Assembly: GCA_025774935.1 (NCBI GenBank)
Contig: JALGZK010000009.1
Coordinates: 1 to 64,000, forward strand
DNA from: a bacterium
GTDB taxonomy: Bacteria > Joyebacterota > Joyebacteria > Joyebacterales > Joyebacteraceae
Direction of reading: 5' to 3'
Length of the DNA stretch: 64,000 nt
Under the pieces are notes generated by a model, which had not been told where the DNA came from, did not search any database, and saw nothing but the letters and a program-made list of their open reading frames with translations. Made by a program: the position numbers and the translations under genes. Positions 1 to 63,358 of this stretch are shown in pieces (position 1 is the first letter of the stretch; each line of letters starts with the position of its first letter).

Positions 1-531
1 GAGCCGGACCTCACCCACGCCGACTGGGAGTTCGTCCACCCGTCGGACGACAACGACAACCCCGACGTCCCGAACCTCCGGCACTGCGCGGGTTCCGACG
101 TCGACATCGCGCTCGCGAACGGGGGGGACGGCATCCTCATCGCCACCGGGGACGACACGACGGCCGCGATCGACTGCGACACGGTCGTCGACGGCGTGAA
201 CTGGGCCGGCGTGTCCGACCCGGTCCCCATCACCTGGACCTCGTGCGAGGATCCTGCGTTCGCCGCGGGTGTCCCGCAGGGGAACTCCCTCGGGAGGTGC
301 CCCGGCGGGATCGACGGGAACGTGTCGAGCGCTGAGGACTGGTTCATGACGATCCCCTCGCCGGGAGCGCCCAACATGCCGTCCTGGCCATCCGACTGCT
401 CGGTCGGCGTCACGGAAGAGCGGGCGAGCTGGGGGCTCATCAAGGCCATCTACCGCCCCGGCGCCCTCGCGGCCGTGGGAACGCCCGGGGTCCTGGGCGC
501 GTCCGGAGGGGACTCCCGCCCGCGCCGTTGA
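1..531 (+). CDS. Secreted lamin-tail-domain protein, C-terminal part (5' end outside window)
   Basis: The reading frame is open from the first base, so the gene starts upstream of the window; 176 codons are visible. The visible part ends a lamin-tail (LTD) domain: a 'GGDGILIATGDD' strand, a Cys pair around 'TSCEDPAFAAG', 'GNSLGRCPGG' and the characteristic 'DWFMTIPSPGAPN' end. LTD domains occur in extracellular bacterial proteins, so secretion is inferred; the signal peptide is not visible. Close to the C-terminus lies 'ASWGLIKAIYR', the same motif that forms the extreme C-terminus of three other secreted proteins in this window, but here 24 further residues rich in Gly, Ala and Pro follow before the stop. 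Function unknown. Confidence 0.8.
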   Translation, partial: EPDLTHADWEFVHPSDDNDNPDVPNLRHCAGSDVDIALANGGDGILIATGDDTTAAIDCDTVVDGVNWAGVSDPVPITWTSCEDPAFAAGVPQGNSLGRCPGGIDGNVSSAEDWFMTIPSPGAPNMPSWPSDCSVGVTEERASWGLIKAIYRPGALAAVGTPGVLGASGGDSRPRR

Positions 532-14448: not shown

Positions 14449-14450
14449 CG

Positions 14451-15775: not shown

Positions 15776-15820
15776 ACGCGGGGAGCGGACGGACCGACTC
15801 GCGCCATCGACAGGTGGACC

Positions 15821-16321: not shown

Positions 16322-16332
16322 GGAGGTTCGTG

Positions 16333-18441: not shown

Positions 18442-18508
18442 GCCGGGGGACGCGAGGACCGCCGGGATCAGCCTCGGCCGAAGCAGGCGGCGCAAGGAGA
18501 TTCACGAG

Positions 18509-18534
18509 AGAGCCCCCGCTCACGCGGGGGCTCT
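18509..18534. terminator. Bidirectional terminator after pilD
   Basis: AGAGCCCCCG (18509-18518) / CGGGGGCTCT (18525-18534), six-base loop. It separates pilD from the convergent fourth pilin gene. Confidence 0.75.
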
Positions 18535-18585
18535 TCGATGTCGCGGAGGCGTTGGACTGGGCCACGCCCGCATGCGTTGCCGCTC

Positions 18586-19005: not shown

Positions 19006-19096
19006 GCTGCGTTCACTCCTCTCTTGCTCTCTCCCCCTGGTCTGCTGTGTCCTTCATCGATAACGTCGCTTGAAGAACGGACGGGCGGTCCTCCGC

Positions 19097-20542: not shown

Positions 20543-20682
20543 GGCAGTTCCCCCAATACATGACCTCCGACCCCGGATTCATCCGGAGTCAGGACTCGGG
20601 GCAACCTGTGGGAATCAGGAAGCCCCCCCGATGTGTGGTCGTACGGTCAGAATGCCTGTTTGGCGCAACCCGACCTGTCGGA

Positions 20683-21219: not shown

Positions 21220-21244
21220 CGTCTCTTCCTCCGTCTCCACGCCA

Positions 21245-21733: not shown

Positions 21734-21754
21734 GGTCGTTCCGCCCTTCACGGT

Positions 21755-23155
21755 CTAGGCCGCCTCGATCTCTCTCCACGAGAGCTTCTCGTACATGCCG
21801 GTCAGGAAGTAACCCGGCGGCTGCATCGAGCTGAACCGCTGATCGTAGTGGTAGTTCTTCGCGTACCCCGTCCTGATGACGACCTGGTCGCCCTGGATCG
21901 TGCCCGTCCCCACGGCTCCCCTGAACTGCTGGATGATGCCGCCGTGCACGGTGAGCGTTCCCCTCGGGCTCCCGCTGTTGTAGTTCTCCGCCGTGAACGA
22001 CGTCCCGAGCGCCATGACGTGCGCGTGGATGTTCACGCCGTTCGAGTTGGCGGTGTTGTTGTCGATGATGACGTTCTCCTGCGAAACGAGTCCGAGGACG
22101 TCGTCGCAGCCATCGTTGGGGCCCTCGACCGGGTCGGCGTCGTGGTAGACGACGTCGCCCAGGACGTAGGTGTCGCCGCCCGATGCGACGGTGAGGGTCC
22201 CGTCGAGCACGCCCTGGATCTGCACGTCGCCCGTCACGTAGAGTACGCCGTTGAAGGACGAGATCTCGACGTCGGTCCACCGACCGCCGGGCTGCCGGTA
22301 GCTCACGTAGCCGACCATCGGTTCGCCGTGGACCTCCCGGGCCAGCTTGATTTGGTAGCTCCCGCTCAGGTAGACGCCGCCGTCCGTGGCGATCGCCTGG
22401 AGGTCGTCGAGGTACTGCGGGAGCTCGATGGCTGACGCCCCGAGCTCGTAGCCATCTTCGAACGCCGGCTCGTCGTAGGGCGCGTTGGAGGGCTCCGCCG
22501 ACTCCAGGTGGTTCCAGAAGCTCCCGTTGTAGTACAGGAACGACGGATCGTTGTTCGGATCGGGATCGTCGGGTCCGCCGTGCGCGCTCGACACGTGGCC
22601 CCCGAACGTGGGGTCGCCGAAGATGTTGAGCTGCCCGTTGGTGTGGGCCGTCCCGTCGATGTAGTCGGCCGAGCAGAACCACACCGGGGTCGAGGAGTTG
22701 GGGAGGTGTTCGTCCTCGGTGAAGTAGATGTACTGCGCGAACGACTGGGTCATCACCTCGCGGCTCAGGGTCCTCGTCCTGGCTCCCACCGTGCCGCTCG
22801 AGATGATGGTGTACCTCTTCATCGTCCCTGCTCCGTTACTCGCGTGCGGTCGTATTGTCACGGCGTACGTGCTGCCGCCCTCCAGCGTGTCAGGGTGCGC
22901 CCCGAACGGGTGGACATCGGCCACACCGGCGGGAGGGGAGGGCTGTGCCTCGAGCCATCCCAGGCCGCGGGCCAGACCCGCCTCCGCTGCGTAGAGCGCC
23001 CGGGACTTCTCGGTCGTCGCCTTCGCAAGCGATGCGTCCTGTGCCCCGAACTGACAAACCGCGGCCACCGTGATCAGCATGATGAACGCTATGAGCACGG
23101 CAGCCGTGAGCACCGATCCAGACTCGTCTCTCGGAAGCAATGGCGTCTTGAGCAT
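21755..23155 (-). CDS. PilX/DUF4900-type pilus assembly protein, first gene of the minor-pilin operon
   Basis: 466 residues. N-terminal membrane segment 'GSVLTAAVLIAFIMLITVAAVCQFG' followed by 'EKSRALYAAEAGLARGLGWLEAQ', then a DUF4900-like beta domain with 'VLYVTGDVQIQGVLDGTLTVASGGDTYVLGDVVY'. Both this protein and its paralog carry a matching strand-repeat and end with 'LSWREIEAA' or 'LNWREVTPSLPA'. Aromatic- and Asp/Asn-rich loops suggest a surface-exposed tip. The sigma-54-like element upstream implies regulation in step with pilB. Confidence 0.8.
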   Translation of the reverse strand: MLKTPLLPRDESGSVLTAAVLIAFIMLITVAAVCQFGAQDASLAKATTEKSRALYAAEAGLARGLGWLEAQPSPPAGVADVHPFGAHPDTLEGGSTYAVTIRPHASNGAGTMKRYTIISSGTVGARTRTLSREVMTQSFAQYIYFTEDEHLPNSSTPVWFCSADYIDGTAHTNGQLNIFGDPTFGGHVSSAHGGPDDPDPNNDPSFLYYNGSFWNHLESAEPSNAPYDEPAFEDGYELGASAIELPQYLDDLQAIATDGGVYLSGSYQIKLAREVHGEPMVGYVSYRQPGGRWTDVEISSFNGVLYVTGDVQIQGVLDGTLTVASGGDTYVLGDVVYHDADPVEGPNDGCDDVLGLVSQENVIIDNNTANSNGVNIHAHVMALGTSFTAENYNSGSPRGTLTVHGGIIQQFRGAVGTGTIQGDQVVIRTGYAKNYHYDQRFSSMQPPGYFLTGMYEKLSWREIEAA

Positions 23156-43340: not shown

Positions 43341-43580
43341 ATGTTCCTGCACGCACTACGAAGGATCTACCGGTTTCCTGCCGCCTCCGCCGAGATCGCG
43401 CGAGACGATCGCGTCGGTGCGGAGATCCCCTGTGAGTGCTGATGCCGCGCGGCGCGGCGTGGTTGGTTATGGCGTGGGAGGGTGCCCTTCCCCCGAACGG
43501 TTGACGCATTGCTGTCGGCTACGCGCTCCCACGAGGAGAACCTCGGCTTGCTGTCCTGCCGTGAAAGGGGGACGAGCATC

Positions 43581-45908
43581 ATGAAGCAGATGCTAGCAGT
43601 GTGGGGATTCGTATGCCTGGCCGCCCTGGTACTCGTAACCGGGGTCGCCCATGGCCAGTCGACCGGGTTCATCGTGGGATGGGGCGGTCAGGTCATTGTA
43701 GAACCGTCGGCGCTGGAGGATCTCGCGGGGGTCGCGGCGGGCTCCTCTCACAGCCTTGCCCTCAAGTCTGACGGGACGATCGTGGTCTGGGGGAGCAATG
43801 GAAGCGGTCAGTGCGATGTCCCTGCACCGAACGCCGACTTCGTAGCGATCGCGGCGGGCCATGATCACAGCATGGGTCTCAAGTCTGACGGGACAATCCT
43901 GGCCTGGGGGGCCAACTCCCAGGGCCAGTGCGACGTCCCAGCGCCGAACGCCGACTTCGTGGAGGTCGCGGGTGGCTATTCCCACAGCCTGGGCCTCAAG
44001 TCCGACGGGACGATCGTAGCCTGGGGGAGCAACGGCCTCGGCCAGTGCGACGTCCCCGCGCCGAATGCTGATTTCGTGGCAATCGCGGGAGGCGCGTGGC
44101 ACAGCCTTGGGCTCAAGTCCGACGGGACGATCGTAGCTTGGGGACGCAACGACGATGGGGAGTGCGAGATCCCCGCGCCGAACGCCGACTTCGTTGCCGT
44201 CGCGGGGGGCGGCTCTCTGGCGTACCCGACGATCTTCTGGGGTCACAGTCTGGGTCTCAAGTCCGACGGGACGATCGTGGCTTGGGGGGCCAACTACGAT
44301 GGCCAGTGCGATGTCCCCGCGCCGAACGACGGCTTCGTCGCGGTTGCCGGGGGCGGGAGATACAGTCTGGGGCTCACGTCCGACGGGACGATCGTAGGGT
44401 GGGGGAGCAACGGCTTCGGCCAGTGCGACGTCCCCGCGCCAAACGCCGACTTCGTGACGGTCGTGGCGGGCGATCGTCACAGTCTGGGCCATAAGTCCGA
44501 CGGGTCGGTCGTGGCCTGGGGGGAAGACTACTACGGACTGTGCCATGTTCCCGCGCCGGACGCCGACTTCGCTGCGGTTGCGGGGGGCCGGAATCACAGC
44601 CTGGGTCTGAGATCCGACGGGACGATCATGGTTTGGGGGCCCAATGTCAGCGGCGAGTGCGACATCCCCGCGCCGAACGCCGGCTTCGTTGCGGTTGCGG
44701 GGGGCCAGCATCACAGCTTGGGTCTCAGATCCGACGGGACGATCGTAGCCTGGGGGCACAATGAGCATGGCCAGTGCGATGTCCCCGTGCCGAACGCCGA
44801 CTTCACGGCGGTCGCGGGGGGGAGCTGGCACAGCCTGGGCGTCAAGTCCGACGGGACGATCGTAGCCTGGGGGAACAATGAGGGCGGCCAGTGCGATGTT
44901 CCCGCGCCGAACGCCGACTTCATGGCGGTCGCTGGGGGCCTTTGGCACAGCCTGGGCCTCAGGTCCGACGGGACGATCGCGGCCTGGGGGTCCAACTTCG
45001 AGGGCCAGTGCGACGTCCCCGCGCCGAACGCCGACTTCGTGGCGGTCGCGGGGAGGGTTCGTCACAGCCTGGGGCTCAAGTCCGACGGGACGATCGTAGC
45101 GTGGGGGATGAATGAGTACGGCCAGTGCGATGTTCCTGTGCCGAACACCAACTTCGTGGCGATCGCGGCGGGCTATGATCACAGTCTGGGGCTCAAGTCC
45201 GACGGGACGGTCGTAGCGTGGGGGAGGAACGAGCACGGCCAGTCCGATGTCCCCGCACTGAACGCGGACTTCGTGGCCGTCGCGGGTGGCGAGCGTCACA
45301 GCTTGGGCATCAGGAGCCCGGGCACCACGCCCGTTGAGACTGTCTTCTATGCCACGCTCGTGCCTGAGGATGACGCTGTGCTGCTCAGGTGGTCGCTCCC
45401 GAGCTGCTCCGGTGGCGTCGGTCTCATGATCCACCGGTCGCTCTCTGAGGACGGTCCCTACAGCTGTATCACGCCGGAGCCGCTGCCTGCTGCTGCACTC
45501 GGCAGCTACGTCGACGAGACCGCGTCGTCTGGCGGGACGTTCTGGTACGAGCTGCGCGCGCTCATGCCTTCCGGCGAAGAGGTCCTCGCGACAGACATAC
45601 ACGCGTCAGTTGTCGTCCCCGGAACGGTCACGTTCGGGATCCGACACGTGATGCCCAATCCTGCCACGGCGCGAACGACCATCGGTTACACGCTCCCCGA
45701 GCGGTGGCGATCAGCCCGGCTCTCGGTGCATGACGTGGCTGGCCGGCTCGTCCGGGGGTTGGACCCCGCGACGGGAGATCGCGGGTTCCTCTCGGTCGAT
45801 TGGGACGGGAGAGCCAGTTCCGGGGAATGGGTCGCATCCGGCGTGTACTTCGTTCGGCTGGAGGTCGACGGTGCGGTGGCGACGGAGAGGATGGTGTTGT
45901 TGCGGTGA
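43581..45908 (+). CDS. Secreted RCC1-type repeat protein with FlgD-like C-terminal domain
   Basis: 775 residues. A signal peptide ('MLAVWGFVCLAALVLVTGVAHGQ') is followed by 13 complete 39-residue RCC1-like repeats built on 'VAWG.N..GQCDVPAPNADFVAVAGG..HSLGLKSDGTI', enough for about two seven-bladed propellers. Nearly every repeat has one cysteine (GQCDVP). The fourth has a nine-residue insertion. A short fibronectin-like segment and a FlgD/T9SS-A-like domain ('IRHVMPNPATARTTIGYTLPE..VHDVAGRLVR..DWDGR...GVYFVRLEVDG..ATERMVLLR') close the protein; such domains mark cell-surface proteins in FCB-type bacteria. AAGGGGG precedes ATG 43581. Probably a surface ligand-binding protein; partner unknown. 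Confidence 0.85.
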   Translation: MKQMLAVWGFVCLAALVLVTGVAHGQSTGFIVGWGGQVIVEPSALEDLAGVAAGSSHSLALKSDGTIVVWGSNGSGQCDVPAPNADFVAIAAGHDHSMGLKSDGTILAWGANSQGQCDVPAPNADFVEVAGGYSHSLGLKSDGTIVAWGSNGLGQCDVPAPNADFVAIAGGAWHSLGLKSDGTIVAWGRNDDGECEIPAPNADFVAVAGGGSLAYPTIFWGHSLGLKSDGTIVAWGANYDGQCDVPAPNDGFVAVAGGGRYSLGLTSDGTIVGWGSNGFGQCDVPAPNADFVTVVAGDRHSLGHKSDGSVVAWGEDYYGLCHVPAPDADFAAVAGGRNHSLGLRSDGTIMVWGPNVSGECDIPAPNAGFVAVAGGQHHSLGLRSDGTIVAWGHNEHGQCDVPVPNADFTAVAGGSWHSLGVKSDGTIVAWGNNEGGQCDVPAPNADFMAVAGGLWHSLGLRSDGTIAAWGSNFEGQCDVPAPNADFVAVAGRVRHSLGLKSDGTIVAWGMNEYGQCDVPVPNTNFVAIAAGYDHSLGLKSDGTVVAWGRNEHGQSDVPALNADFVAVAGGERHSLGIRSPGTTPVETVFYATLVPEDDAVLLRWSLPSCSGGVGLMIHRSLSEDGPYSCITPEPLPAAALGSYVDETASSGGTFWYELRALMPSGEEVLATDIHASVVVPGTVTFGIRHVMPNPATARTTIGYTLPERWRSARLSVHDVAGRLVRGLDPATGDRGFLSVDWDGRASSGEWVASGVYFVRLEVDGAVATERMVLLR
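43782..45329 (+). repeat. Thirteen tandem 117-bp coding repeats
   Basis: Each unit encodes one 39-residue RCC1-like repeat. Units are very alike at DNA level (GACGGGACGATCGTAGCCTG and GATGTCCCCGCGCCGAACGC recur), so unit number may vary between strains through unequal recombination. Confidence 0.85.
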
Positions 45909-51843: not shown

Positions 51844-52467
51844 CTACCGGAAGAGGCCCTTGATCGTGCTCCAGGTCATGCTCTCGATCGAGGTCTGCGG
51901 GCTGCCATAGATCCTGGCCATCCAGCGGAAGTAGGAGCCGGGTCCGTCCCAGGTCACGCAGTCAAAGGACCAGTCGTGAGGGATGATGACTCCGGATGCA
52001 GCCGTCGCCATGTCGGCGCCCACCACCACCTGGTACTTGATGTAGTAGAGCGTTCCCTCCGTGACGTAGACGGCCGGAACCAGGTTCTCCCCCTGCCAAC
52101 CGTGTGTCGCCGACTCCGTATACGACACGGTCGCGAGGACCGGCCCGGTCGGCGCGCCGCTGCCATCGTCTTCGAGCAGCGAGACGGCCACGGAACCGCC
52201 GACTCCGCCAGCGTAGAACTCGATCCTCTCGAAGGCAAAGCTCGTACTGGGAACGTACGCAAACCCGAAACACTCGGCCGCGTATTGCCCCCACGGTTCG
52301 TAGGGTTGGCCGTCGTTCCAACCCTCGATGTACTCCTCTCTGGGCGCATCTGTGGGTATTGCCTCCCCTCCCGGAGACGCGGGCTCGGCACCACCCACTG
52401 TCAGTGCCAGAGCCAAGCCAGGCACCACGATGAGGAGAACGGCCAGGAAAAGAGCGAGGCTTCTCAT
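51844..52467 (-). CDS. Secreted protein ending in the WSTIKGLFR motif
   Basis: 207 residues. Signal peptide 'RSLALFLAVLLIVVPGLALALT', then a beta-rich domain: 'WNDGQPYEPWGQYAAECFGFAYVPSTSFAFERIEFYAGG', 'VAVSLLEDDGSGAPTGPVLATVSY', 'LYYIKYQVVVGADMATAASGVIIPHDW'. This resembles the choice-of-anchor/jelly-roll modules of secreted proteins describing device-like 'LEDDGSGAPTG' repeats, so carbohydrate or surface binding is possible. The chain ends 'ESMTWSTIKGLFR', the motif shared by three other proteins here. ATG 52467 has GGAGG upstream. Confidence 0.82.
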   Translation of the reverse strand: MRSLALFLAVLLIVVPGLALALTVGGAEPASPGGEAIPTDAPREEYIEGWNDGQPYEPWGQYAAECFGFAYVPSTSFAFERIEFYAGGVGGSVAVSLLEDDGSGAPTGPVLATVSYTESATHGWQGENLVPAVYVTEGTLYYIKYQVVVGADMATAASGVIIPHDWSFDCVTWDGPGSYFRWMARIYGSPQTSIESMTWSTIKGLFR

Positions 52468-52985
52468 GTGCCCTCCGTCCTGCAGTTGGATCCCATGGCA
52501 CGAATTCCCTGCCACGCCAGCGCGCAGCACCGCTCGAGTTCGGCGGGCACAAGCTCGGCTGTCACCGACAGGCACAGAGACAGCACCCGCTGGTGCGCCG
52601 AGTATACCACAGACGAGCCGGCGTGTCGAGAATGACCCGCCGGCAGCCTCTCCGGCCTGTCGTGCGGCTCACTCGCCCAGTGGCGCTCAGGTGATGGCGT
52701 CCCAATCACGCTCGGAGCGAGAGGAAGCTCAACATCCTCTGCCTGCCGAGGGGACAGAACTCGGGAGTCAAGCCGCAGTGGCTTGCTTGCGGATCGTCTC
52801 CGCATCCAGGAGCCGCTCCTCAGTGTGGTTCCAGCTGAGGTGCTGAGGGACTGTCACCTCACAAGGTGTCCGCAGATATGGGCTCCTTGTGGGGTCCTAT
52901 CAGCGGACACCGCACCTCGAATCCCACCCACCTCACGTGCGTCCAAACAGCAGGCACGTAGGCTGGTCTGGGCAGGGAGGGGACT
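52468..52985. other. Intergenic region between divergent 51844 and msrBA genes
   Basis: No convincing gene or strong promoter. The stretch near 52768 (TCAAGCCGCAG) repeats TCAAGCCGCAG at 51570, upstream of repeat D, but no tRNA end follows. Confidence 0.4.
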
Positions 52986-53927
52986 ATGCGGAAGCTCGTG
53001 GCGGCAATCGCCTTGTTGGCCATGCCGCTGGTCTTCGGGCTCGTCTGGGCGGGAGAGGAGACCGGCATGAGCACCAAGGAGTATCGCGAACTCACGCCTG
53101 AAGAGGAGGCGGTGATCGTCGACAAGGGGACGGAGTTTCCCTTCTCCGGGGAGTACTACGACCATTTCGAGAAGGGCACCTATCACTGCAGGCGCTGCGA
53201 CGCGCCGCTCTATCGGTCGAGCCATAAGTTCGCGACGTCCTGCGGATGGCCGAGCTTCGACGACGAGATTGAGGGCGCGGTGAGGCATGAGACGGACGCG
53301 GACGGGATGAGGACCGAGATCCTCTGCGCCGACTGCGGCGCTCACCTGGGGCACGTGTTCGAGGGGGAGATGCTGACGGACAAGAACGTCCGACACTGCG
53401 TGAACTCGATCTCCCTCGTCTTCGTGCCCGATGAGGAGACTGTGGACACAGCACGCGCGTACTTCGCCGGAGGGTGCTTCTGGGGAGTCGAGCACCTCTT
53501 CGAAGGTCAGGAGGGAGTGATCTCCGCCGCCTCTGGCTACATGGGCGGTTCGACAGAGAACCCCACGTACGAGGAAGTGATCTCCGGCATCACGGGCCAC
53601 ATGGAGACCGTCGAGGTCGAGTACGATCCTGAGAAGGTCACCTACGAGGAACTCGCCCGCTACTTCTTCGAGATCCACGACCCGACGCAGGCAGGCGGTC
53701 AGGGTCCCGACATCGGCGAGCAGTACCTGTCGGCGGTCTTCTACCGGAACGACGAGGAGAAAGAGACGGCAGAGAGGCTCATCGGCATCCTCAGGGACAA
53801 GGGGTACGACGTCGTGACGAAGGTGCTCCCCGCGGGGCAGTTCTGGGAGGCCGAAGGCTACCACCAGGACTACTACGCTCGCACGGGGCGTCAGTCCTAC
53901 TGCCATGTCTACACGAAGAGATTCTAG
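52986..53927 (+). CDS. Exported methionine sulfoxide reductase MsrB-MsrA fusion
   Basis: 313 residues. Signal peptide to about residue 22, then MsrB (about 27-150) with zinc Cys68, Cys71, Cys114 and Cys117 and catalytic Cys138 in 'RHCVNS', then MsrA (about 155-313) with catalytic Cys164 in 'GGCFWGVE' and 'ISGITGHMETVEVEYDP'. Together they reduce both epimers of methionine sulfoxide. The signal peptide places it in the periplasm, where it must get electrons from a membrane thiol carrier not seen here. GGGAGGGG precedes the ATG. MsrB-before-MsrA order is the reverse of most fusions. Confidence 0.92.
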   Translation: MRKLVAAIALLAMPLVFGLVWAGEETGMSTKEYRELTPEEEAVIVDKGTEFPFSGEYYDHFEKGTYHCRRCDAPLYRSSHKFATSCGWPSFDDEIEGAVRHETDADGMRTEILCADCGAHLGHVFEGEMLTDKNVRHCVNSISLVFVPDEETVDTARAYFAGGCFWGVEHLFEGQEGVISAASGYMGGSTENPTYEEVISGITGHMETVEVEYDPEKVTYEELARYFFEIHDPTQAGGQGPDIGEQYLSAVFYRNDEEKETAERLIGILRDKGYDVVTKVLPAGQFWEAEGYHQDYYARTGRQSYCHVYTKRF

Positions 53928-54016
53928 TCTCCCCGCGACTTGACACTCGCACGCTCGTCAGCACCGCTCGCAGGAGGCGGTGAGGAGAGAGACGTCCTGA
54001 CAGGTGACACCAACTT

Positions 54017-54045
54017 GAGAAGGCCCGCGGGAGCGGGCCTTTCTC
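54017..54045. terminator. Bidirectional terminator between msrBA and the cupredoxin gene
   Basis: GAGAAGGCCCGC (54017-54028) / GCGGGCCTTTCTC (54033-54045), one bulge, four-base loop. Confidence 0.75.
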
Positions 54046-54084
54046 ATCGTACGGATGCTTGAAGTCGGTCGAGTCCGCTCCCGA

Positions 54085-54519
54085 TCAGCGGTAGAGTTCC
54101 TTGATGCGTCCCCAGGACACCGCCTCGTCCGGCGCCCTGGTGTCGATTCCGACGCCAACGGAACCCACCATGCCGAAGAGAGAGCCGTGCGGCTGGCAGA
54201 AGTAGTCGTAGACCCCTCCAGGAACCGGATTCGCGATGAGGAATGCAGCGTCGAACACCACATCGAAGGTGGTTCCCGCGAGATCTGGGGGGCCAGAGGA
54301 GAAGTAGGGTGTGGGCGATCCCGGAACGCCCGAGACGACGTTGTGCCCACCGCTGTCCCATACCCAGTGTACCGTGTCACCCACAGCTACAGTGACGTCC
54401 GCGGGCGAGAACGTGAACAGTCCGCCGGGGCCAACAGTGACGTTATGCGTCACGGCGGTCGCCGAGAAGGCAGTGAACACAAGAGCCGCCGCAACCAGAG
54501 CTACACTGGTCATCTTCAT
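54085..54519 (-). CDS. Plastocyanin-like cupredoxin ending in the WGRIKELYR motif
   Basis: 144 residues. Signal peptide to about residue 23, then one cupredoxin domain. Copper ligands can be read directly: His59 ('GGHNVVSG'), Cys108 and His111 ('YFCQPHGSLFGM'), and Met117. An electron carrier of the cell envelope is the likely role. The last residues 'EAVSWGRIKELYR' follow a short linker ('GVGIDTRAPD') after the domain end, which shows that the motif is an added tail. AAGGAAGG precedes ATG 54519. Confidence 0.88.
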   Translation of the reverse strand: MKMTSVALVAAALVFTAFSATAVTHNVTVGPGGLFTFSPADVTVAVGDTVHWVWDSGGHNVVSGVPGSPTPYFSSGPPDLAGTTFDVVFDAAFLIANPVPGGVYDYFCQPHGSLFGMVGSVGVGIDTRAPDEAVSWGRIKELYR

Positions 54520-54923
54520 TGCTGGACCTTCCTTTGCAGGAGGCTCACGACCGGTTGACCGGAGCATGCAACTCCCCCCTCACCAGCTGTTTAGATGACG
54601 TTTCCTCCCTCGGGTTGCCTGCCGAGGGTCGGGTGGGACCCGTGGGGTCCCTTCTGTGTGATGTGGCCGTCCAGCATGGCCGCAGATCACGTGGCGGCTC
54701 GTGATTCCGAGATGTCCTGGCTCGAGAGGAGAGCGCTGCGACGCCACCTTCGGGGGAGACTGCCCAGCTCTGCGAGCCACCTCCAGCACGGGCGCCATAC
54801 AGAGGACGGCAGGCCTCCCGTGTGAAGTTGACCCACCCTCTCTGATGCGGTAGCTTCGGGGTGCCGTCCCCGCAGTCTCACCTCCGTGAGCACGTCGTCC
54901 GCGATTCGCAGAGAGGCAATCAC
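54520..54923. other. Divergent intergenic region upstream of the 510-residue secreted protein
   Basis: No gene. A hairpin GGGACCC/GGGTCCC at 54635-54651 and the promoter at 54828-54856 are the only signals seen. Confidence 0.45.
54828..54856 (+). promoter_or_regulatory. Promoter for the 54924 gene
   Basis: TTGACC (54828-54833), 17-base spacer, TAGCTT (54851-54856), 68 bases before the ATG. Confidence 0.5.
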
Positions 54924-56456
54924 ATGGCCGTGACTCCCCCCGCCCGTCCTACCCAGCTTCCCGCAGCCCTTGTCGTCGTCTTGTGTCTGCTCCAGCCCGC
55001 CATTCCCCTGGGCGACGACACCGCGCACGCGCAGGCGTCGCGCGTCGCTCGGATCGCCGACCCGTGTTGCGAGATTGCGGACGTCCCGGGTGTGGTCTGG
55101 TACGGGATGGACTCCACGCTGACGGTCGATAGACTCGCCGCCTACTGTGCCCCCATTCTCTGGTTCTCGCCCGACGAACCGCTCCTCGACGACAGGACGG
55201 GAGAGGACATCCGTCTCCCCGAGCCCTTTCCGTTCGAGGACGCACCCGACGCGCCGGTGGTCTACTACCGCCTGCGCAAGGTGTACGCGCGCGACGACAA
55301 CGAGGCGCCGCCGTACGTCCCGGCCGGAGACGACCGCGGGGCTGCGCTCGTTGACCTCGAGAACGCGTCCGCCGTGGAGCTGGACTTCTTCTTCTACTAC
55401 TCCGGCGAAGAGGGGTTCGGCGGCCACGCGCACGACGTCGAATCGGTCGAGATGAAGATCGGGATTGGCGACCGCGATTGCGAGAACTGCAAGTTCGGGT
55501 TCGCGGTAATGCGCGTGAATGCCAAGGCGCATGGCGTCCTCTGGTACGACAACACGCTCACTTCGGACGTCCACACCGTGTTCCCGATGACCATCCTAGT
55601 GGAGGAGGGGAAGCACGCGAGCTGCACCGACAAGAACGGCGACGGTTACTACACCCCGGGCTATGACGTCAGCGAGCGGATCAACGACGCGTGGGGGGTA
55701 CGCGACGTGATCAGAAGCGGCATGCTGGCGTCGGGCGGTTTCGAGAGCTGGATGGCCAAGGTGCGGAGGCCCGACACCCGGGTCTTTCCCCCGCTTCCCG
55801 AGGACAGCCCGCTCCTTGCGGCGCATCACGGGAACGAGTGGTACGAGAGCAGTGACCACGCTGTCTACGAGCTGCGCGAGTTTCCGCGGCCCGAGATGGC
55901 CGAGCACGACGAGCATCTCTACCCGTTCATCGAGAACAAGGGGAATCCCGACTGGCCGGAGGTGGACGAGGACGTCCAGTTCAAAGAGGTCACCGACTGG
56001 CTCTACGACGGGAGCGCGCGACGGTCGCTCTCGGTCGCGTACCGCTACGACGGCGATCACGGTGTCTCCTTCGTGTTCCCGTTCTTCATCATCAAGAACC
56101 TGGAAGTGAAGGTGACGGGGGGATGGCTCGTCCAGCGCGTGATCCTCTCGGACTATCGCCTGCGGGACATCACGTGGCAGGGCATGTACACGACGTCGGC
56201 GTCGCGGTGGGTCTCCGGCTACTTCGCCGCCGGCGCCAAGTGGGACAAAGACGACAGCGGGCACCGGGCCACGTATTTCGCCAGCGAGACCGGACTCAAG
56301 TTCCGGGCGAACATCGGGAGCACGCCGCTCCGGTTCCTGAGACACCTCGGGACCGACTTCTGGGGGCTCCGCGCGGGCATTCGATACGTCGGCGCCGGTG
56401 CGTGGAGCTTCGACGACATCGGCTACGTGATCGAGTTCGGCGCGGGAGCGTTCTAG
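54924..56456 (+). CDS. Large secreted protein of unknown function, probably outer-membrane associated
   Basis: 510 residues. N-terminal signal region 'LPAALVVVLCLLQPAIPLGDDTAHAQA'. The first two thirds hold His/Asp/Glu-rich loops that could bind metal ('GGHAHDVESVEMKIG', 'DKNGDGYYTPGYD' resembling a calcium loop, 'AAHHGNEWYESSDHAVYEL'), plus a Cys pair 'DCENC'. A distant likeness to Vps62/DUF946 proteins ('HAHDVE', 'WYESSDHAVYE') is only suggestive. The last 130 residues alternate like a beta barrel and end in 'VIEFGAGAF', with the C-terminal aromatic residue typical of outer-membrane proteins. ATG 54924 follows GAGAGG. Confidence 0.7.
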   Translation: MAVTPPARPTQLPAALVVVLCLLQPAIPLGDDTAHAQASRVARIADPCCEIADVPGVVWYGMDSTLTVDRLAAYCAPILWFSPDEPLLDDRTGEDIRLPEPFPFEDAPDAPVVYYRLRKVYARDDNEAPPYVPAGDDRGAALVDLENASAVELDFFFYYSGEEGFGGHAHDVESVEMKIGIGDRDCENCKFGFAVMRVNAKAHGVLWYDNTLTSDVHTVFPMTILVEEGKHASCTDKNGDGYYTPGYDVSERINDAWGVRDVIRSGMLASGGFESWMAKVRRPDTRVFPPLPEDSPLLAAHHGNEWYESSDHAVYELREFPRPEMAEHDEHLYPFIENKGNPDWPEVDEDVQFKEVTDWLYDGSARRSLSVAYRYDGDHGVSFVFPFFIIKNLEVKVTGGWLVQRVILSDYRLRDITWQGMYTTSASRWVSGYFAAGAKWDKDDSGHRATYFASETGLKFRANIGSTPLRFLRHLGTDFWGLRAGIRYVGAGAWSFDDIGYVIEFGAGAF

Positions 56457-56848
56457 CGGTCGGCGGCCTTGCCGGGTGCTGGGAGGCCTCGCAGCCAGCG
56501 ACTCTCGCTCTGTGCGGCTGACCCGTGGCCGCGGATGGGGTTGAGATCACGGATTCCCAGCCGCCCGGGGGATCATGCTGAGCGGCACGGTCATAGCGGC
56601 GCTGGTCGCTTCCCTCTTCGGGGGAGAGGCCAGCGCCGTCTCAGGTGATGCCCTTGACAACAGGCTGGCTCTTCAGCCGACCGCCGATCGCTCTGGACCG
56701 CTCGGATCACTTCCTTCGCCGACGCATCTGATAGTGAGTAGGGAGTGAGTCCGAATGTGGGTGCACGCCCCGCAGGCGCCCGAGGTTGACTTGCGGTTCT
56801 CGCGACGGAGTGTTCGCGGGACCGCAGATCACAGAGGAGGAGGATAGA
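56457..56848. other. Intergenic region with one doubtful small ORF
   Basis: Apart from the small ORF at 56575-56748, nothing is recognised. No strong promoter is visible upstream of the AhpD-like gene. Confidence 0.4.
56575..56748 (+). CDS. Doubtful small ORF with signal-peptide-like start
   Basis: 57 codons: 'MLSGTVIAALVASLFGGEASA' looks like a signal peptide with an AxA end, followed by 36 polar residues. GGGGGA lies only two bases before the ATG, too close for a good ribosome site. It may be chance. Confidence 0.2.
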   Translation: MLSGTVIAALVASLFGGEASAVSGDALDNRLALQPTADRSGPLGSLPSPTHLIVSRE

Positions 56849-57250
56849 GTGGCAACATCAACGGTGGCAACGTCAGCGGAGGTGTTCCAGGAGGTCGAGA
56901 AGGCCCTCGGTGTTGTTCCCACGTTTCTGAAGGAGCTCGACTACGACCCGGTGGCACTGGAGCACAGCTGGGCGCTGATACAGAAGTTCATTCTGGGGGA
57001 GTCTGAGATCCCGCCCAAGTACAGGGAGCTCATGGGCGTCGCTGTCGCGTCGGCGGTGCACTGTCGCTTCTGCGTCACGTTCCACGCGGCGGTCGCGAAG
57101 CTGTACGGAGCCACGGACGAGGAGATCAAGGAAGCGTCCTTCCTGGCCAAGCATACCGTCGGGTGGAGTTCCTTCGTGGATGGACGCCTCGCCGACATCG
57201 GGCAGCTGGAGAAGGAGCTGGCGATGATAGGGGAGCACATGTCGAAGTAG
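56849..57250 (+). CDS. AhpD/carboxymuconolactone-decarboxylase-family protein
   Basis: 133 residues. Contains the AhpD-like redox site 'AVHCRFCVTFHAAVAK' (CxxC followed by xxxH) in an all-helical fold. Members reduce peroxidase partners or act as decarboxylases; the CxxCxxxH motif favours a peroxidase or thiol-reductase role. GTG 56849 has GAGGAGGAGG six bases upstream. A terminator follows. It joins MsrBA and the cupredoxin in a short run of redox genes. Confidence 0.85.
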   Translation: MATSTVATSAEVFQEVEKALGVVPTFLKELDYDPVALEHSWALIQKFILGESEIPPKYRELMGVAVASAVHCRFCVTFHAAVAKLYGATDEEIKEASFLAKHTVGWSSFVDGRLADIGQLEKELAMIGEHMSK

Positions 57251-57278
57251 GTCGCATCCCCGGAGCTCAGGAACAACG

Positions 57279-57309
57279 AAGAAACCCGCCCCTCAGGGAC
57301 GGGTTTCTT
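57279..57309. terminator. Bidirectional terminator after the AhpD-like gene
   Basis: AAGAAACCCG (57279-57288) / CGGGTTTCTT (57300-57309), followed by GTT on the plus strand and by C/A-rich sequence on the other. Confidence 0.75.
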
Positions 57310-57364
57310 GTTACGCACTGGCACGTCAGGGCGGCGAGGACGGGGCGCTCGATCCCTGCGACGA

Positions 57365-58099
57365 TCACCTATAGAGCGCCTTGATCGTTCCCCAGGTGGT
57401 CCCCTCGACGATCGATGCGCTCCAGCACACCTGGAGCGTCGCGTCCCTTCCTGTTGTCGTCCCTACCTGGTCTTGCAGGACACTCCCCAACGCACCCACG
57501 AACTCGATCTGGTACGACAGGTCGAAGAAGCTGTCGACCTGGAAGTCGGTTCCTGGTCCCCCCAGGCGCGTGAGAGTGGTCGTTCCGGACGCCGGGAGGC
57601 TGAGGTCGGAGCCCGTACGGAACTGGAGCAGATCGAAGTCAGGGTCGTTGAGTATCTCTCCCTCAAGCTCCACGAGCTCACCCGCGTACGGCTGCACGGC
57701 ATCGTTCAGGACCCGCGGCCCCCACTCTGCGACACCGGACACCGGCATGTGGAGCATGCGACTGAATCCACCCAGGTTACCGGTCCCGGACATCTCCAGC
57801 AGGAGCATCGCGTCGAAGGTCGACTGCGTCCCGCCGAGTCCGCCTCCGATGATCTCGAGCACGTTGCCCACATCGAACAGAGTCGCGTCGATCTCGATCG
57901 TGGCGTTGGTGAGCCCGTTCACGATCTCCAGATCGCCTCGGTACCCGTCGAGGCAGTTCGGCGGCATCGTCACCGTCCCGGCGCCGTTATCAGGAAGCTG
58001 GCACGGGCAAGGCTCCTGTGCGACCGCTGAGTCGATGGCCCCCGCGAAGGCCACGACGGCCATGGCAGCGGTCGTTGCGAGTCTGGCAGCTGTTCTCAT
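57365..58099 (-). CDS. Secreted protein ending in the WGTIKALYR motif
   Basis: 244 residues. Signal peptide 'ARLATTAAMAVVAFAGAIDSAVAQ', then 'EPCPCQLPDNGAGTVTMPPNCLDGYRGDLEIVNGL' with three cysteines near the mature N-terminus. The chain is beta-rich and low in charge; I recognise no family. The segment 'GPRVLNDAVQPYAGELVELEGEILNDPDFDLLQFRTGSD' is well ordered. It ends 'EGTTWGTIKALYR'. AGGAGG precedes ATG 58099. It faces the AhpD-like gene across a terminator. Confidence 0.8.
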   Translation of the reverse strand: MRTAARLATTAAMAVVAFAGAIDSAVAQEPCPCQLPDNGAGTVTMPPNCLDGYRGDLEIVNGLTNATIEIDATLFDVGNVLEIIGGGLGGTQSTFDAMLLLEMSGTGNLGGFSRMLHMPVSGVAEWGPRVLNDAVQPYAGELVELEGEILNDPDFDLLQFRTGSDLSLPASGTTTLTRLGGPGTDFQVDSFFDLSYQIEFVGALGSVLQDQVGTTTGRDATLQVCWSASIVEGTTWGTIKALYR

Positions 58100-58794: not shown

Positions 58795-58797
58795 ATG
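58773..58797 (+). repeat. Duplicated kinase leader, copy 1
   Basis: GTTCACATCGAGGC and the sequence to the ATG recur at 63409-63433 with two differences, and the homology continues into both genes. Confidence 0.7.
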
Positions 58798-61434
58798 GAG
58801 AAGAGACTCCTCCACTACGAGATCCTCCACCGCATCGGGAAGGGCGGGATGGGGGACGTCTACGCTGCCGAGGACACCAAGCTCGGGCGCACGGTCGCGT
58901 TGAAGATCCTACCTCCGGAGATGGCTGCGGACCCCGAACGGCGCGCGCGCTTCGAGCGCGAGGCGAGGGCGGTCGCGGCTCTCAACCACCCGAACATCGT
59001 GACGATCCACTCGGTCGAGGAAGCGGACGGCGTGCACTTCATCACGATGGAGCTGGTTGAAGGCAAGACCCTCTCGGAGTTGATCCCGAAGGGCGGCTCC
59101 GAACTGGCGCAGTTCCTCGATCGGGCCGTCGCCTTGACCGACGCCGTCAGCGCAGCCCACAAGAGGGGAATCACGCACCGGGACCTGAAGCCGGACAACG
59201 TCATGCTGAGCGACGACGGCCGCGTCAAGGTGCTGGACTTCGGACTGGCGAAACTAAGGGGGGCGGCCACGGACGATGCCGCCGCGACGCGGCTTGCAGG
59301 CCACGAGCAGACAGCAGAGGGCAAGATTCTCGGAACGGTGGCCTACATGTCACCGGAGCAGGCTGAGGGGAAGGCGGTCGACCCACGGTCCGACGTCTTC
59401 TCGCTCGGGATCATCCTCTACGAAATGGCCACAGGACAACGCCCGTTCAAGGGCGACACTCCCATATCGACAGTCTCATCTATTCTCAGGGACACGCCCA
59501 CCGCCGTAACTGAGCTCAAGGCGTCCCTGCCGCGACATCTCGGCAGGATCGTGAAGCGGTGTCTGGCCAAGGACCCCGACCGCCGATACCAGACCGCCGT
59601 TGATCTGAGGAATGACCTAGAGGGATTAAAGGAGGAGATCGAGTCCGGCGAGATCCTGCTCGAGAGGCCTGGGGCGTCTGTCGGCGCGGGCGGATTCCGG
59701 GGACGACGTCTCGTCCTTGGAATCGCGGTGCTCGCGGTGGCCGTCGTCGGTGTGAGCTACGGGGTCTACGGGCTCGTAGGCCTCGGCGCGGGGGAACCCG
59801 GCACGACCGCTCCCTTCCAGCAGATGGAGATGACGCGGCTGACGAGCAAGCAGGGAGGTCCCTGGAACCCGGCCGTCTCCCCCGATGGCAAGTATGTGGT
59901 CTACGTGCAGGACGATGGAGGAAGAGACAGCCTGTGGCTCCTGCAGACGGGCACGGCGCGCAGCGTCCAGATCGTCCCCACCTCCGGCGCCGGTATCTGG
60001 GGTCCGAGCTTCTCTCCCGACGGAGATCTCATCTACTACGTCAGCCGGGTGGGCGACGCGGACCCCGGCACGCTGTATCGCGTGCCCGTGCTGGGCGGCC
60101 CCTCCACACGGGTTCTCGAGGACGTGGATGGGAGGATCTCGTTCTCGCCGGACGGGAGCCAGTTCGTCTTCCTGCGCACCGAGGGAGTCCAGAGATACAT
60201 GCTGGTGGTGGCGGATGCGGACGGCAGAAACGAGCACGTGATAGCGAGCCGCACCAGTCCGGATGAGTATCATCGGGCTCCGGCCTGGTCTCCGGACGGC
60301 AGTGTCGTCGCCGTGGCAGCCCTTACGCGCGCCGACGGTGACGAGTACAGCCTCGTCGTGGTGCCTTCCGAAGGTGGAACCGAGCGGACGATCTCCTCGA
60401 GGACCTGGGGACATATTGACAATCCGGCGTGGCTTCCCGACGGAAGCGGACTCGTCGTCACCGAGTCATTTCAGCTGTGGGAGCAGCCATATCCGGAAGG
60501 GACAGCGCGGAGGATCACCAACGATCTGAACTCCTACAGCGCTGTCAGCCTGGCGGCCGATGGCCAGTCGCTGGTCACTCAGGTGATGGAGAGGCAACAG
60601 ACGCTGTGGGTCACGTCCGTCGGGGAGTCCGGCGAGCCGCAGCAGATTACGTCCGGGGACCTGAGGGTCCACAGCAGGGGGGTCTCCTGGACCCGCGACG
60701 GCAGGATCGTCTACGGGGTCCGGTCCGGGCAGTCCGTCGATCTGTGGATCACGGGAGTGGGCGGGGGGAAAGCGACGCAGCTCACGTTTGGCGGTGCGGA
60801 CACGCATCCCTCGGTCTCCTCCGACGGCCGGTATGTCGTCTTCAACAGCCGCCCCCCATCTGAGAGACACATCTGGAGGATCGGTCTCGATGGAGGAGAC
60901 CCGGTTCAGCTGACCTTCGGTGAGGGCGAACGCCTACCGCAGTGTCATCCCGAAGGACGCTGGGTGCTCTACCTCGGCGACACTCCCGATGGAGACGCGC
61001 TCTACAGGGTGCCGATCGAGGGGGGAGAGCCCGAACTGCTCAGCGAGATGATCCTGGCGAGAACGTCCCCGGCCATCTCTCCCGACGGGGAGATGGTAGC
61101 CGTTCAGGTCGGCGACGAGAGCACGGATGAGACGTTGACGGGGATCCTCCGAATCGAAGGAGGGGAACCGGTACGAACGCTCGGTCTCGATACCAGCGCA
61201 TATCGATCGTCTCTTCGATGGTCCCCTGATGGTGATGCCCTTGATTATGTCGATGTCAAAGGGGGAGTCGGCAACATCTGGTCTCGGCCTCTCGACGGCG
61301 GCCCACCCCGGCAGCTGACGCACTTCGAGGACAAGTACATAGACGACTTCGCGTGGGCGCCGGACGGGAAGACCGTCGCTGCGATAAGGCGGAACCACAC
61401 TTGGTCAGTGGTCCTCCTGAAGAACTTCCGGTGA
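58795..61434 (+). CDS. Ser/Thr protein kinase with C-terminal PD40 beta-propeller
   Basis: 879 residues. Kinase domain about 7-275: 'IGKGGMGDVYAAED', Lys37 ('VALKIL'), 'HRDLKPDN' (Asp130), DFG 148-150, 'GTVAYMSPEQ'. One membrane helix at about 304-328 ('LVLGIAVLAVAVVGVSYGVYGL'). The extracytoplasmic part is a TolB/PD40-type propeller with recurring 'SPDG', such as 'PAVSPDGKYVVYVQ', 'PSFSPDGDLIYYV', 'SPDGSQFVFLR', 'WSPDGSVVAVA'. A transmembrane sensor kinase is the natural reading. It lacks PASTA domains. Start ATG 58795; closely related to the third kinase. Confidence 0.92.
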   Translation: MEKRLLHYEILHRIGKGGMGDVYAAEDTKLGRTVALKILPPEMAADPERRARFEREARAVAALNHPNIVTIHSVEEADGVHFITMELVEGKTLSELIPKGGSELAQFLDRAVALTDAVSAAHKRGITHRDLKPDNVMLSDDGRVKVLDFGLAKLRGAATDDAAATRLAGHEQTAEGKILGTVAYMSPEQAEGKAVDPRSDVFSLGIILYEMATGQRPFKGDTPISTVSSILRDTPTAVTELKASLPRHLGRIVKRCLAKDPDRRYQTAVDLRNDLEGLKEEIESGEILLERPGASVGAGGFRGRRLVLGIAVLAVAVVGVSYGVYGLVGLGAGEPGTTAPFQQMEMTRLTSKQGGPWNPAVSPDGKYVVYVQDDGGRDSLWLLQTGTARSVQIVPTSGAGIWGPSFSPDGDLIYYVSRVGDADPGTLYRVPVLGGPSTRVLEDVDGRISFSPDGSQFVFLRTEGVQRYMLVVADADGRNEHVIASRTSPDEYHRAPAWSPDGSVVAVAALTRADGDEYSLVVVPSEGGTERTISSRTWGHIDNPAWLPDGSGLVVTESFQLWEQPYPEGTARRITNDLNSYSAVSLAADGQSLVTQVMERQQTLWVTSVGESGEPQQITSGDLRVHSRGVSWTRDGRIVYGVRSGQSVDLWITGVGGGKATQLTFGGADTHPSVSSDGRYVVFNSRPPSERHIWRIGLDGGDPVQLTFGEGERLPQCHPEGRWVLYLGDTPDGDALYRVPIEGGEPELLSEMILARTSPAISPDGEMVAVQVGDESTDETLTGILRIEGGEPVRTLGLDTSAYRSSLRWSPDGDALDYVDVKGGVGNIWSRPLDGGPPRQLTHFEDKYIDDFAWAPDGKTVAAIRRNHTWSVVLLKNFR

Positions 61435-61573
61435 CATCGGCGTCGGTGATGTCCGGCGTCATCTCCGCTTCCGCCTGAGGCGTACGCGTCCGAAACCTGG
61501 CAGACGAGGGCTGTTTCGGATAGAATCACGAATGCCATTCGCGAGCCGGATCGATCCGAAGGAGCGACCGCCC

Positions 61574-63358
61574 ATGATCTGCAGGACCCTCGCCCACTAC
61601 GAGATCATCGAGAAGATCGGCGCCGGCGGCATGGGCGAGGTGTACCGCGCCCGTGATCAGCAGCTGGATCGTGATGTGGCCCTCAAGCTCCTTCCCGAGG
61701 CCTGGTCCAGCGATTCCAGTCGCCTGAGTCGTTTCGAGCGTGAAGCCAAGGTGCTCGCCTCCCTCAATCATCCCCACATCGCGGCCGTGTACGGATTCCA
61801 CACAGAGAACCATGTGCACTTCATTGCGATGGAGTTGCTGGAAGGCGAGACCCTCGCGTCAAGCATCGTCGAGGGAGGGCTCTCCCTCGACCGGTTACTT
61901 GAGATCGGGATTCCGCTCGCCGACGCGATTGCGTTCGCCCACGACAAGGGCGTGATTCATCGCGATCTCAAACCCTCAAACGTCATGTTGGACGCGTCCG
62001 GCAGAATCCGCGTACTCGACTTCGGCGTGGCCGGCCTGAGACAGGTGGAGTCGGACATCGATGCTGACGCGACCCTCGACGCACTGACCGGGGTGGGTGA
62101 GGTCGTGGGGACCGTCGCCTACATGCCGCCCGAGCAGTTGGAAGGGCGCATTGTGGATGCGCGCGCAGACGTGTTCTCGATCGGCGTGGTGCTCTACGAG
62201 CTGGCAACCGGCAAGAGACCCTTCCGCGCCGACAGCACCGCCGGCCTCATCTCGACCATACTCCGCGGCGACTTCGCCCCACTGACCGAGGTCCGCCCGG
62301 ATCTCCCCGCGGATCTGGCCCGCGTGGTTCGACGCTGTCTGGAGAAGAAGGCCGAGAGACGAATGCAGACGGCGGCGGACGTTCGCAACGAGCTTGAGGA
62401 TCTCCAAGCGGGGATGTACACGGACGAGCCATCGCGGTCAGTCCGCATTTCGGTGAATTCCCAGTCGCCTGCTGAGCACCGCATGGTGATCACGACCGAG
62501 CATGTGCGGCAGTTGTCCACACAGATCCCGCGCATGATCGGCGACTCGATGACATATCTTGACAACGAGCGCAACTCTGATGTGCTGGTCTTCTTCCTGC
62601 ACGGTATCGGTGGCGACCAGGATCAATTCGGAGAGATCCTCCGGCAGACGCCGTTCCGGGCCGTCGCCCCTTCCCTCTACGGTTTCGGGCAGGAGGCCCG
62701 CGTGAGGCCTCCGCTCCACTTCACCGATCACAACCTGCTTGTAGCGATCCTGTTGAAAGAAGTGGGTCGGCGAGTCCGGCCGCGGATCCAGGTGCTGGTG
62801 GGTCACTCGTCCGGCGCGGATCAGATGCTCCGGATCGTTGCGTCGGAGGAGGGCGAACGAGTCCGTCCCGACGGTCTCATCCTGGGGGGTCTGCAGGTCA
62901 GACCGGGCGCCGGGTTCGTGAGCGGCCCGCTCTCCAGATTGACGGACGATCCGACTGACATCCTGAATGTGGCCCGGGCGGTGGCGGCGGCTGCAGAAGA
63001 CCTGGACACCTGGCTCCACCTTCACGACTACCTGGTCCGTGCGCTCGGCAAGTTTGGCAAGGACACGGACGCACTGCGGACGTTCGCCCAGGAGCTCATC
63101 GCCGTCTACGGCGATGATGAGTTCTTTGAGCTCTTCCGGACAGTAACGGAGCGTGTGCAGCACGTTCGGTGCGTATTCAGCTCAGATGAGCGCGAGGATG
63201 TCGACTATGTTCTGGAGCGGCATATCGGCGACAATGTACTCGGAGACCGCTACTCCGAAGAGATGATCGTGATGGAGTCGGTAGGACACGTGCAGCTAAG
63301 AAGCGCTTCGATTCTCCTTCCCTATGTCGAGGAGATCGTGCAGAGCACGCGGGGGTAA
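61574..63358 (+). CDS. Ser/Thr protein kinase fused to an alpha/beta hydrolase-like domain
   Basis: 594 residues. Kinase domain about 8-275: 'IGAGGMGEVYRARD', Lys38, 'HRDLKPSN' (Asp131), DFG 149-151, 'GTVAYMPPEQLEG'. A linker of about 50 residues leads to an alpha/beta hydrolase domain (about 335-594): 'DVLVFFLHGIGGDQDQF' (oxyanion HG), nucleophile elbow 'VLVGHSSGADQML' with Ser412, and a late His in 'ESVGHVQLRS'. No membrane helix or signal, so cytoplasmic. The hydrolase may be the output switched by the kinase. ATG 61574 has AGGAG nine bases upstream; ATG 61532 adds 14 residues. Confidence 0.87.
   Translation: MICRTLAHYEIIEKIGAGGMGEVYRARDQQLDRDVALKLLPEAWSSDSSRLSRFEREAKVLASLNHPHIAAVYGFHTENHVHFIAMELLEGETLASSIVEGGLSLDRLLEIGIPLADAIAFAHDKGVIHRDLKPSNVMLDASGRIRVLDFGVAGLRQVESDIDADATLDALTGVGEVVGTVAYMPPEQLEGRIVDARADVFSIGVVLYELATGKRPFRADSTAGLISTILRGDFAPLTEVRPDLPADLARVVRRCLEKKAERRMQTAADVRNELEDLQAGMYTDEPSRSVRISVNSQSPAEHRMVITTEHVRQLSTQIPRMIGDSMTYLDNERNSDVLVFFLHGIGGDQDQFGEILRQTPFRAVAPSLYGFGQEARVRPPLHFTDHNLLVAILLKEVGRRVRPRIQVLVGHSSGADQMLRIVASEEGERVRPDGLILGGLQVRPGAGFVSGPLSRLTDDPTDILNVARAVAAAAEDLDTWLHLHDYLVRALGKFGKDTDALRTFAQELIAVYGDDEFFELFRTVTERVQHVRCVFSSDEREDVDYVLERHIGDNVLGDRYSEEMIVMESVGHVQLRSASILLPYVEEIVQSTRG

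Follow-up and report, generated by a model that had tools for sequence, protein, structure and literature searches.

We report here that a C-terminal tail of about 10 residues, carried by three proteins encoded on a 64,000-nucleotide stretch of a Joyebacterota genome (assembly GCA_025774935.1, contig JALGZK010000009.1, positions 1 to 64,000; hereafter the window), is probably an undescribed and very short sorting signal of the type IX secretion system (T9SS), which would send its carriers to the cell surface. The tail is real, sits at the C-terminus of exported proteins specifically, is restricted to lineages with a T9SS, and exchanges with the type-A C-terminal domain (CTD) of this system on homologous passengers. 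Based on these sequence comparisons, the tail most likely serves as a short-peptide substitute for the type-A CTD, and we infer that the secretion of its carriers depends on the T9SS, along with a receptor, a cleavage step, and a mode of attachment.

An original prediction, made from the window alone, had described three proteins with signal peptides and unrelated folds ending in TWSTIKGLFR, SWGRIKELYR, and TWGTIKALYR. These C-termini are exact in the window open reading frames (ORFs), each ORF starts with a plausible signal peptide, and the folds are indeed unrelated: a DUF4082-like domain, a plastocyanin-type cupredoxin followed, as predicted, by a linker and the tail ~11 residues past the domain, and a third domain without match in Pfam or NCBIfam (Table 1). 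The pattern W..[IVM]K..[YF]R-stop was matched three times in the window compared with 0 in 100 shuffles, and 73 times across both strands of the genome to which the window belongs (3.24 Mb; hereafter the own genome), compared with 0 for the reversed pattern; the C-terminal enrichment holds genome-wide. With variants included, 71 proteins with a signal peptide carry the core within their last 25 residues. The tail consensus is [ST]PVExx[ST]W[GS]xIKx[LM][YF]R, or in fuller form [ST]PVExxTWGxIKALYR-COOH, around a core tag of ~10 residues, TWGxIKxLYR. Among 71 tails, W and K occur in 71 each, G in 65 (S in 6), I in 60, Y in 61 (F in 10), R in 65, T or S ahead of W in 67, and P, V, and E of the upstream linker in 49, 49, and 50, respectively, where the regular expression fixes W and K and restricts the G, I, and Y positions, such that only the remaining positions provide unbiased counts.

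The protein ends exactly one residue past the aromatic in 65 of these 71 cases. Overall, the fixed tail that had been proposed is a genuine motif, yet its consensus is longer, with [ST]PVExx added, and its terminal R is found in 65/71 only, the exceptions being K, Q, or 1–8 extra residues. Other lineages also use Q or E: in the f99 genomes (G383, loci L296, L300, and L301; G117, locus L297), Gln or Glu is frequently the last residue of the tail (WSQVKALFQ, WSELKQLFQ, WGQVKALFE), which indicates that the terminal Arg is lineage-dependent and makes all terminal-R counts lower bounds. Among the 73 DNA copies there are 71 distinct 30-mers, and every synonymous Arg codon and each of the 3 stops is used; hence this is not one DNA repeat copied around the genome, and selection acts on the peptide. 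An amphipathic helix was not supported: the hydrophobic moment at 100 degrees ranked 106/500 among permutations, i.e., was not significant, and was not above the value at the strand angle. AlphaFold2, applied to the window cupredoxin alone, yielded an uninformative predicted local distance difference test (pLDDT) score of 34, and no membrane helix was seen before or after the motif upon sequence inspection.

Genes were called with home-made scripts and signal peptides with a simple home-made hydropathy rule, not SignalP, and the gene-level statistics for the own genome derive from stretches around tail matches (451 called genes). Among these, a signal peptide was found at the start of 62 of the 64 strict-tail genes compared to 150 of 387 neighbours (p=1.4e-20), an association that bears out the proposed link to export. 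An alignment of 68 longer carriers showed only the tail's W, K, and R to be shared, with a mean column identity of 10%. At least 22 Pfam families are represented among these carriers, including beta-helix, Cleaved_Adhesin, cohesin, PKD, LTD, cupredoxin, and starch-binding domains, and there are also matches to the choice-of-anchor V and J and MXAN_6652 models of NCBIfam, families named after variable C-terminal anchors. None of the 68 matched TIGR04183, PF18962, or PF13860 (type-A CTD and FlgD_ig-like models) or TIGR04131 (type B), and none matched a PEP-CTERM domain or any further model of a C-terminal signal domain. The same library passed a positive control in that it identified the 24-residue PEP-CTERM of an own-genome protein (TIGR02595, 23.7 bits over 16), and locus L298 as well as an RCC1-repeat protein of the window did match type-A CTD models. 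The tail had been presented as distinct from the FlgD-like domain on this RCC1 protein; the FlgD-like domain is itself a T9SS type-A CTD (TIGR04183 24.6 bits, cut-off 23; PF13860 39.4 bits, cut-off 27), and tail and domain thus probably serve the same system.

Tail and CTD are found on the same passengers. In the own-genome stretches, 71 exported proteins carry the tail, 37 a type-A FlgD-like CTD, and 0 both. Tail proteins are also smaller, with a median of 271 aa versus 605 aa for CTD proteins, and the tail is used mainly on small exported proteins. Within a beta-helix family of this genome, tail and CTD forms are as much as 40% identical across 410 aa (E=2e-55), and in locus L070 one gene of each kind adjoin. 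Additional passenger pairs were identified in L048/L171, L061/L187, and L162/L162. Across genomes, homologs of the window cupredoxin keep the tail in G001 (82%), in G226 and G117, in three proteins of G383, and, behind an LTD domain, in G213; the one homolog without it, in G044 (PF00127, 44.7 bits), ends instead in a type-A CTD (TIGR04183 25.4 bits, cut-off 23; FlgD_ig 47.9 bits, cut-off 27). The tailed cupredoxin of G226 and the CTD cupredoxin of G044 are 52% identical over 127 aa. The strongest indication that the tail takes over the role of the CTD comes from this exchange on the same passengers, and, together with the enrichment results, it supports the earlier idea of an uncharacterised sorting, anchoring, or processing signal.

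Next, we consider which machinery accompanies the tail. The own genome encodes a T9SS core above NCBIfam cut-offs, i.e., SprA (529 bits, cut-off 200), PorU (531, cut-off 420), and the PorV family (231, cut-off 90), with PorU and PorV located in a conserved PorU-PorV-M6-like gene cluster. It encodes 11 PorV-family proteins, PorV itself lying at G000:C22:320405-321307. SprA was detected in all 26 tail genomes first tested and, in a sample of 386 genomes, mostly metagenome-assembled genomes (MAGs), in 26 of the 27 with a strict tail; the one genome without a match is a bin of 57% completeness. Beyond the own phylum, SprA was found in 15/15 strict-tail genomes versus 99/366 in the background (hypergeometric p=1.3e-9, a value that overstates independence since the sampled genomes are related). 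Conversely, the strict tail was found in 0 of 267 SprA-negative genomes outside the own phylum, and the looser single matches seen in some of these were no commoner than in the reversed control. The strict pattern misses variants. With looser forms counted as well, the tail appeared in ~36 of the 99 SprA-positive genomes outside the own phylum, compared with 0 for the control. In this sample, the T9SS is therefore necessary, yet not sufficient, for the tail. The original prediction had pointed to a co-occurring membrane protease or transporter; a machinery was indeed found, which, judging from co-occurrence and domain exchange, is most likely the T9SS and not an unknown membrane protease.

Within the own phylum, represented by a single family, the tail was detected in 20/20 sampled genomes at 23–78 copies each, with controls near 0. 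Among the matches listed for the PVE-extended pattern in GTDB genomes were Ca. Eisenbacteria, Krumholzibacteriota/-iia, Latescibacterota, Effluviviaceae (phylum Effluviviacota), and one genome labelled Gemmatimonadota, and the closest records by carrier similarity were a bacterium MAG, at 88% aa identity, and MAGs of Ca. Eisenbacteria, at ~70%. A general pattern applied to 80 SprA-positive genomes yielded 0 control matches and revealed both multi-copy lineages with 12–40 copies (G085, G226, G191, G213, G255, G383, G153, and G290) and many single-copy ones, the matches in G167 and G259 being chance-like or doubtful. Single-copy lineages mostly carry F1, a small exported protein composed of a signal peptide, an FnIII-like region, and a nearly invariant TWGSIKAMFR/ALFR end, which is weakly similar to known domains. 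F1 is single-copy in ~15 genomes of ~10 families, and in most such genomes it is the only tail protein found. The PVE linker is absent from most tail lineages outside the own phylum.

These patterns suggest a route in which a Sec signal peptide would take the carrier to the periplasm, where the C-terminal peptide, in which Trp and Lys are invariant and the aromatic-Arg end nearly so, would be read at the SprA translocon, within its pore. The reader of this free C-terminal peptide would probably be PorV or a PorV-family shuttle. The carrier would then cross SprA and be released or anchored, the latter possibly through PorU, which might also cut off the tail at the PVE linker. In type-A CTDs, the sole conserved residue contacting the translocon is one Lys, bound by PorV (PMC10994853), and the last 13 residues and the motif-E lysines are required, while the last 22 residues of HBP35 are reported to be enough to secrete green fluorescent protein (PMC10202324; this minimal signal is also cited in PMC11285876). 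By analogy, the invariant Lys of the tail, 5 residues from its end, would fit this PorV–Lys picture without proving it.

As for candidate partners of the tail, Peptidase C25 (the PorU family) was found in all tail genomes tested, with PorU as such confirmed in the own genome only. The own genome carries 26 copies of this gingipain/PorU family (12–30 across the phylum), mostly ORFs of ~800–1650 aa, one of which was identified as the PorU sortase itself. This expansion was rejected as a tail partner, as several copies also occur in the tail-negative genomes G022 and G031. PorV-family copy number likewise failed to discriminate (5–29 in tail-positive versus 2–21 in tail-negative genomes), and no neighbour of F1 is conserved across families. 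Three uncharacterised genes lie beside the PorU-PorV-M6-like cluster (Table 1), where the PorU-operon genes from the M6-like protein to F4 were considered as receptors. F6 and F4 were discarded as receptors, both being present in the tail-negative genome G028 as well. F18 is found in clusters of the phylum and of G044, and not in G028; these very few data points are suggestive of F18 as a receptor candidate.

Several observations weigh against a T9SS sorting signal. About 60 SprA-positive genomes lack the tail by the patterns used, which miss variants ending in Q or E, and the best SprA scorers (G222, G352, G107, G247, and G375) are among these tail-less genomes. Co-occurrence is also confounded by ancestry, SprA and the tail both being features of a broad group of phyla, although within this group the tail is found in ~20 or more separate families, all SprA-positive. 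Similarly, the tail has no sequence homology to the CTD, no tail-specific receptor emerged given the non-discriminating PorV copy number, and a CTD-to-tail swap could mean relocation as opposed to use of the same route. The latter is the core of the alternative we regard as unlikely but most worth retaining: a sorting signal for some other, unknown machinery of the envelope (with a receptor, a protease, or an anchor), by chance confined to T9SS lineages, for which exchanging the CTD for a tail would relocate the protein, e.g., by keeping it on the outer membrane, at either its periplasmic or its outer face. Such a machinery would account for the presence of the tail in only ~1/3 of T9SS genomes outside the phylum, which suggests an extra lineage-specific factor, as well as for the lack of resemblance to CTDs and the PorV copy numbers. 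It would, however, require an extra coincidence to explain both the restriction to SprA-positive genomes and the repeated one-for-one exchange with CTDs.

Other explanations appear much weaker. A degradation or quality-control tag for a periplasmic protease, or a chaperone-binding tail, would be compatible with a short C-terminal peptide with a near-fixed end, and with carriers that end in Q, K, or E or run on for a few residues. Yet dozens of enzymes and binding proteins bear the tail, which is kept across phyla on the cupredoxin and F1, and such a tag leaves the T9SS restriction and CTD exchange unexplained, making it very improbable. We consider it slightly less credible still that the tail is an exosortase/PEP-CTERM-like processing signal devoid of a transmembrane helix, even though PVExATW resembles the VPEPATW start of PEP-CTERM, most phylum members encode one exosortase per genome, and the own genome has one true PEP-CTERM protein ('VPEPATWALL...') beside a tail carrier. 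Exosortase was unmatched in G044, with 25 tails and 100% completeness, and in G011, with 51 tails and 98% completeness, and is thus not required and excluded as an obligate partner; moreover, no membrane helix flanks the motif, the PVE linker is lacking in most other tail lineages, and domain models missed all carriers though they matched the true PEP-CTERM protein. Shared descent from one duplicated family, or a mobile element or copied DNA repeat, would be in line with the tandem paralogs seen among carriers (clusters L045, L048, and L051), but is refuted by domain and codon diversity, with at least 22 Pfam families, a 10% mean column identity across 68 carriers, and 71 distinct 30-mers out of 73. 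Finally, the C-terminal beta-signal of outer-membrane beta-barrels was rejected, with no barrel family among the Pfam matches and carriers ending in Arg.

Beyond the three carriers, the window includes a fourth, non-terminal copy of the motif, followed by 24 residues, in an ORF that enters from the window edge and stops at 531, possibly reflecting a decayed or extended tail. Elsewhere in the window, several prepilin-like genes with GFTLVELMIVV starts are clustered on both strands together with a secretin-like gene, a region resembling those for type IV pili or type II secretion. Tandem Ser/Thr protein kinases were also observed; a beta-propeller-like domain is fused to one of them, and an apparent alpha/beta-hydrolase-like half follows the other. 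In the own-genome stretches read, a single PEP-CTERM protein (VPEPATWALLSTGLVGFGAAFRKRLFR) was found, along with one exosortase gene elsewhere, and these two are possibly a dedicated one-substrate pair.

Table 1 Location of the tail carriers and of other features discussed in the text.
Feature	Position	Strand	Remarks
Carrier 1: signal peptide, DUF4082-like domain, tail	51844..52530	-	PF13313 29.3 bits, just over cut-off 28.4
Tail of carrier 1, TWSTIKGLFR-stop	51844..51876	-	
Carrier 2: signal peptide, plastocyanin-type cupredoxin, linker, tail	54085..54567	-	PF00127 43.8 bits
Tail of carrier 2, SWGRIKELYR-stop	54085..54117	-	
Carrier 3: signal peptide, unclassified domain, tail	57365..58099	-	
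Tail of carrier 3, TWGTIKALYR-stop	57365..57397	-	
Non-terminal motif copy ASWGLIKAIYR	424..456	+	Followed by PGALAAVG...SRPRR; ORF 1-531
RCC1-repeat protein ending in type-A CTD / FlgD_ig domain (~45648-45896)	43482..45908	+	Not a tail carrier
Prepilin-like genes	11543-23155		
Secretin-like gene	16330-17679		
Tandem Ser/Thr protein kinases	58795-61434, 61532-63358		
F1 loci (other genomes)	L231:9034-9438, L232:9520-9966, L234:6336-6767, L237:9284-9715, L238:9195-9683, L240:5035-5451, L268-L270, L273, L283-L286		
F4, beside PorU-PorV-M6-like	L250:2948-6397		~1100 aa, 50-residue SprA-like patch
F6, beside PorU-PorV-M6-like	L261:5017-6716		~280 aa
F18, beside PorU-PorV-M6-like	L261:3954-4952		NHL-propeller-like; G044 copy with lipobox-like start
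PEP-CTERM protein, own genome	L058:5556-5873 (G000:C21 about 20056-20373)		
Exosortase gene, own genome	G000:C32:17807-18562		

Taken together, we lean towards the view that the tail would represent a fourth, peptide-length class of T9SS signal, or a T9SS-coupled route with a dedicated receptor. In either case, hundreds to thousands of proteins from several uncultured phyla would use it, and current databases do not know it. This class may stem from a single ancestral carrier (the FnIII-like F1, TWGSIKAMFR) and have then spread to unrelated exported proteins. Whether a short peptide is sufficient for T9SS export has been a question since the HBP35 22-residue result, and a natural tag of ~10 residues would, if this reading is right, reveal the minimum that the translocon must read, offer a compact label for surface display, and make surface proteomes predictable for Eisenbacteria, Krumholzibacteriota, Latescibacterota, Effluviviacota, and their relatives, lineages in which many hypothetical exported proteins have no recognised signal.

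No scanned NCBIfam model matches the tail, and no description of it was found in the literature searched. Among known systems, PEP-CTERM/exosortase, GlyGly-CTERM/rhombosortase, and MYXO-CTERM are likewise short C-terminal signals on many unrelated exported proteins, were also found by comparative genomics, and share choice-of-anchor passengers with the tail. These signals need a transmembrane helix, a basic cluster, and an integral-membrane processing enzyme; the tail, by contrast, has no membrane helix. Within the T9SS, the signals named in the literature covered are folded domains of ~80–235 residues (~80 for the type-A CTD), the short Prevotella CTDs being somewhat smaller. Cited lengths are ~100 residues with seven beta-strands for type A, 150–235 for type B, and ~100 for type C (PMC10202324, PMC12618676). 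Type-B (TIGR04131) and type-C CTDs are, as the tail would be, alternative T9SS signals with their own sequence families; at ~100–235 aa they have no apparent likeness to it in length or sequence, type B uses PorP/SprF shuttles, and for type C (the ~100-aa ChiA-type region) the ~10-aa length of the tail by itself speaks against membership. Short Prevotella CTDs keep motifs B, D, and E (PMC11969387). HBP35, through its last 22 residues, and these Prevotella forms indicate that T9SS export may need no more than a small C-terminal stretch bearing a basic motif E; they are parts of, or shortened, type-A CTDs with motifs D/E (GxY...K), whereas the tail has neither and stands alone. The closest comparison is with the type-A CTD itself (TIGR04183/PF18962, FlgD_ig-like PF13860 in this phylum): like it, the tail is C-terminal on diverse Sec-exported proteins of SprA-positive genomes, holds the same position on homologous passengers, and has a conserved Lys near the C-terminus; unlike it, the tail is ~10 residues long with an invariant Trp, and has no folded beta-sandwich, no motif B or D, and no hidden Markov model similarity. 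By these comparisons, the tail appears to work like a T9SS signal while standing outside the type-A family.

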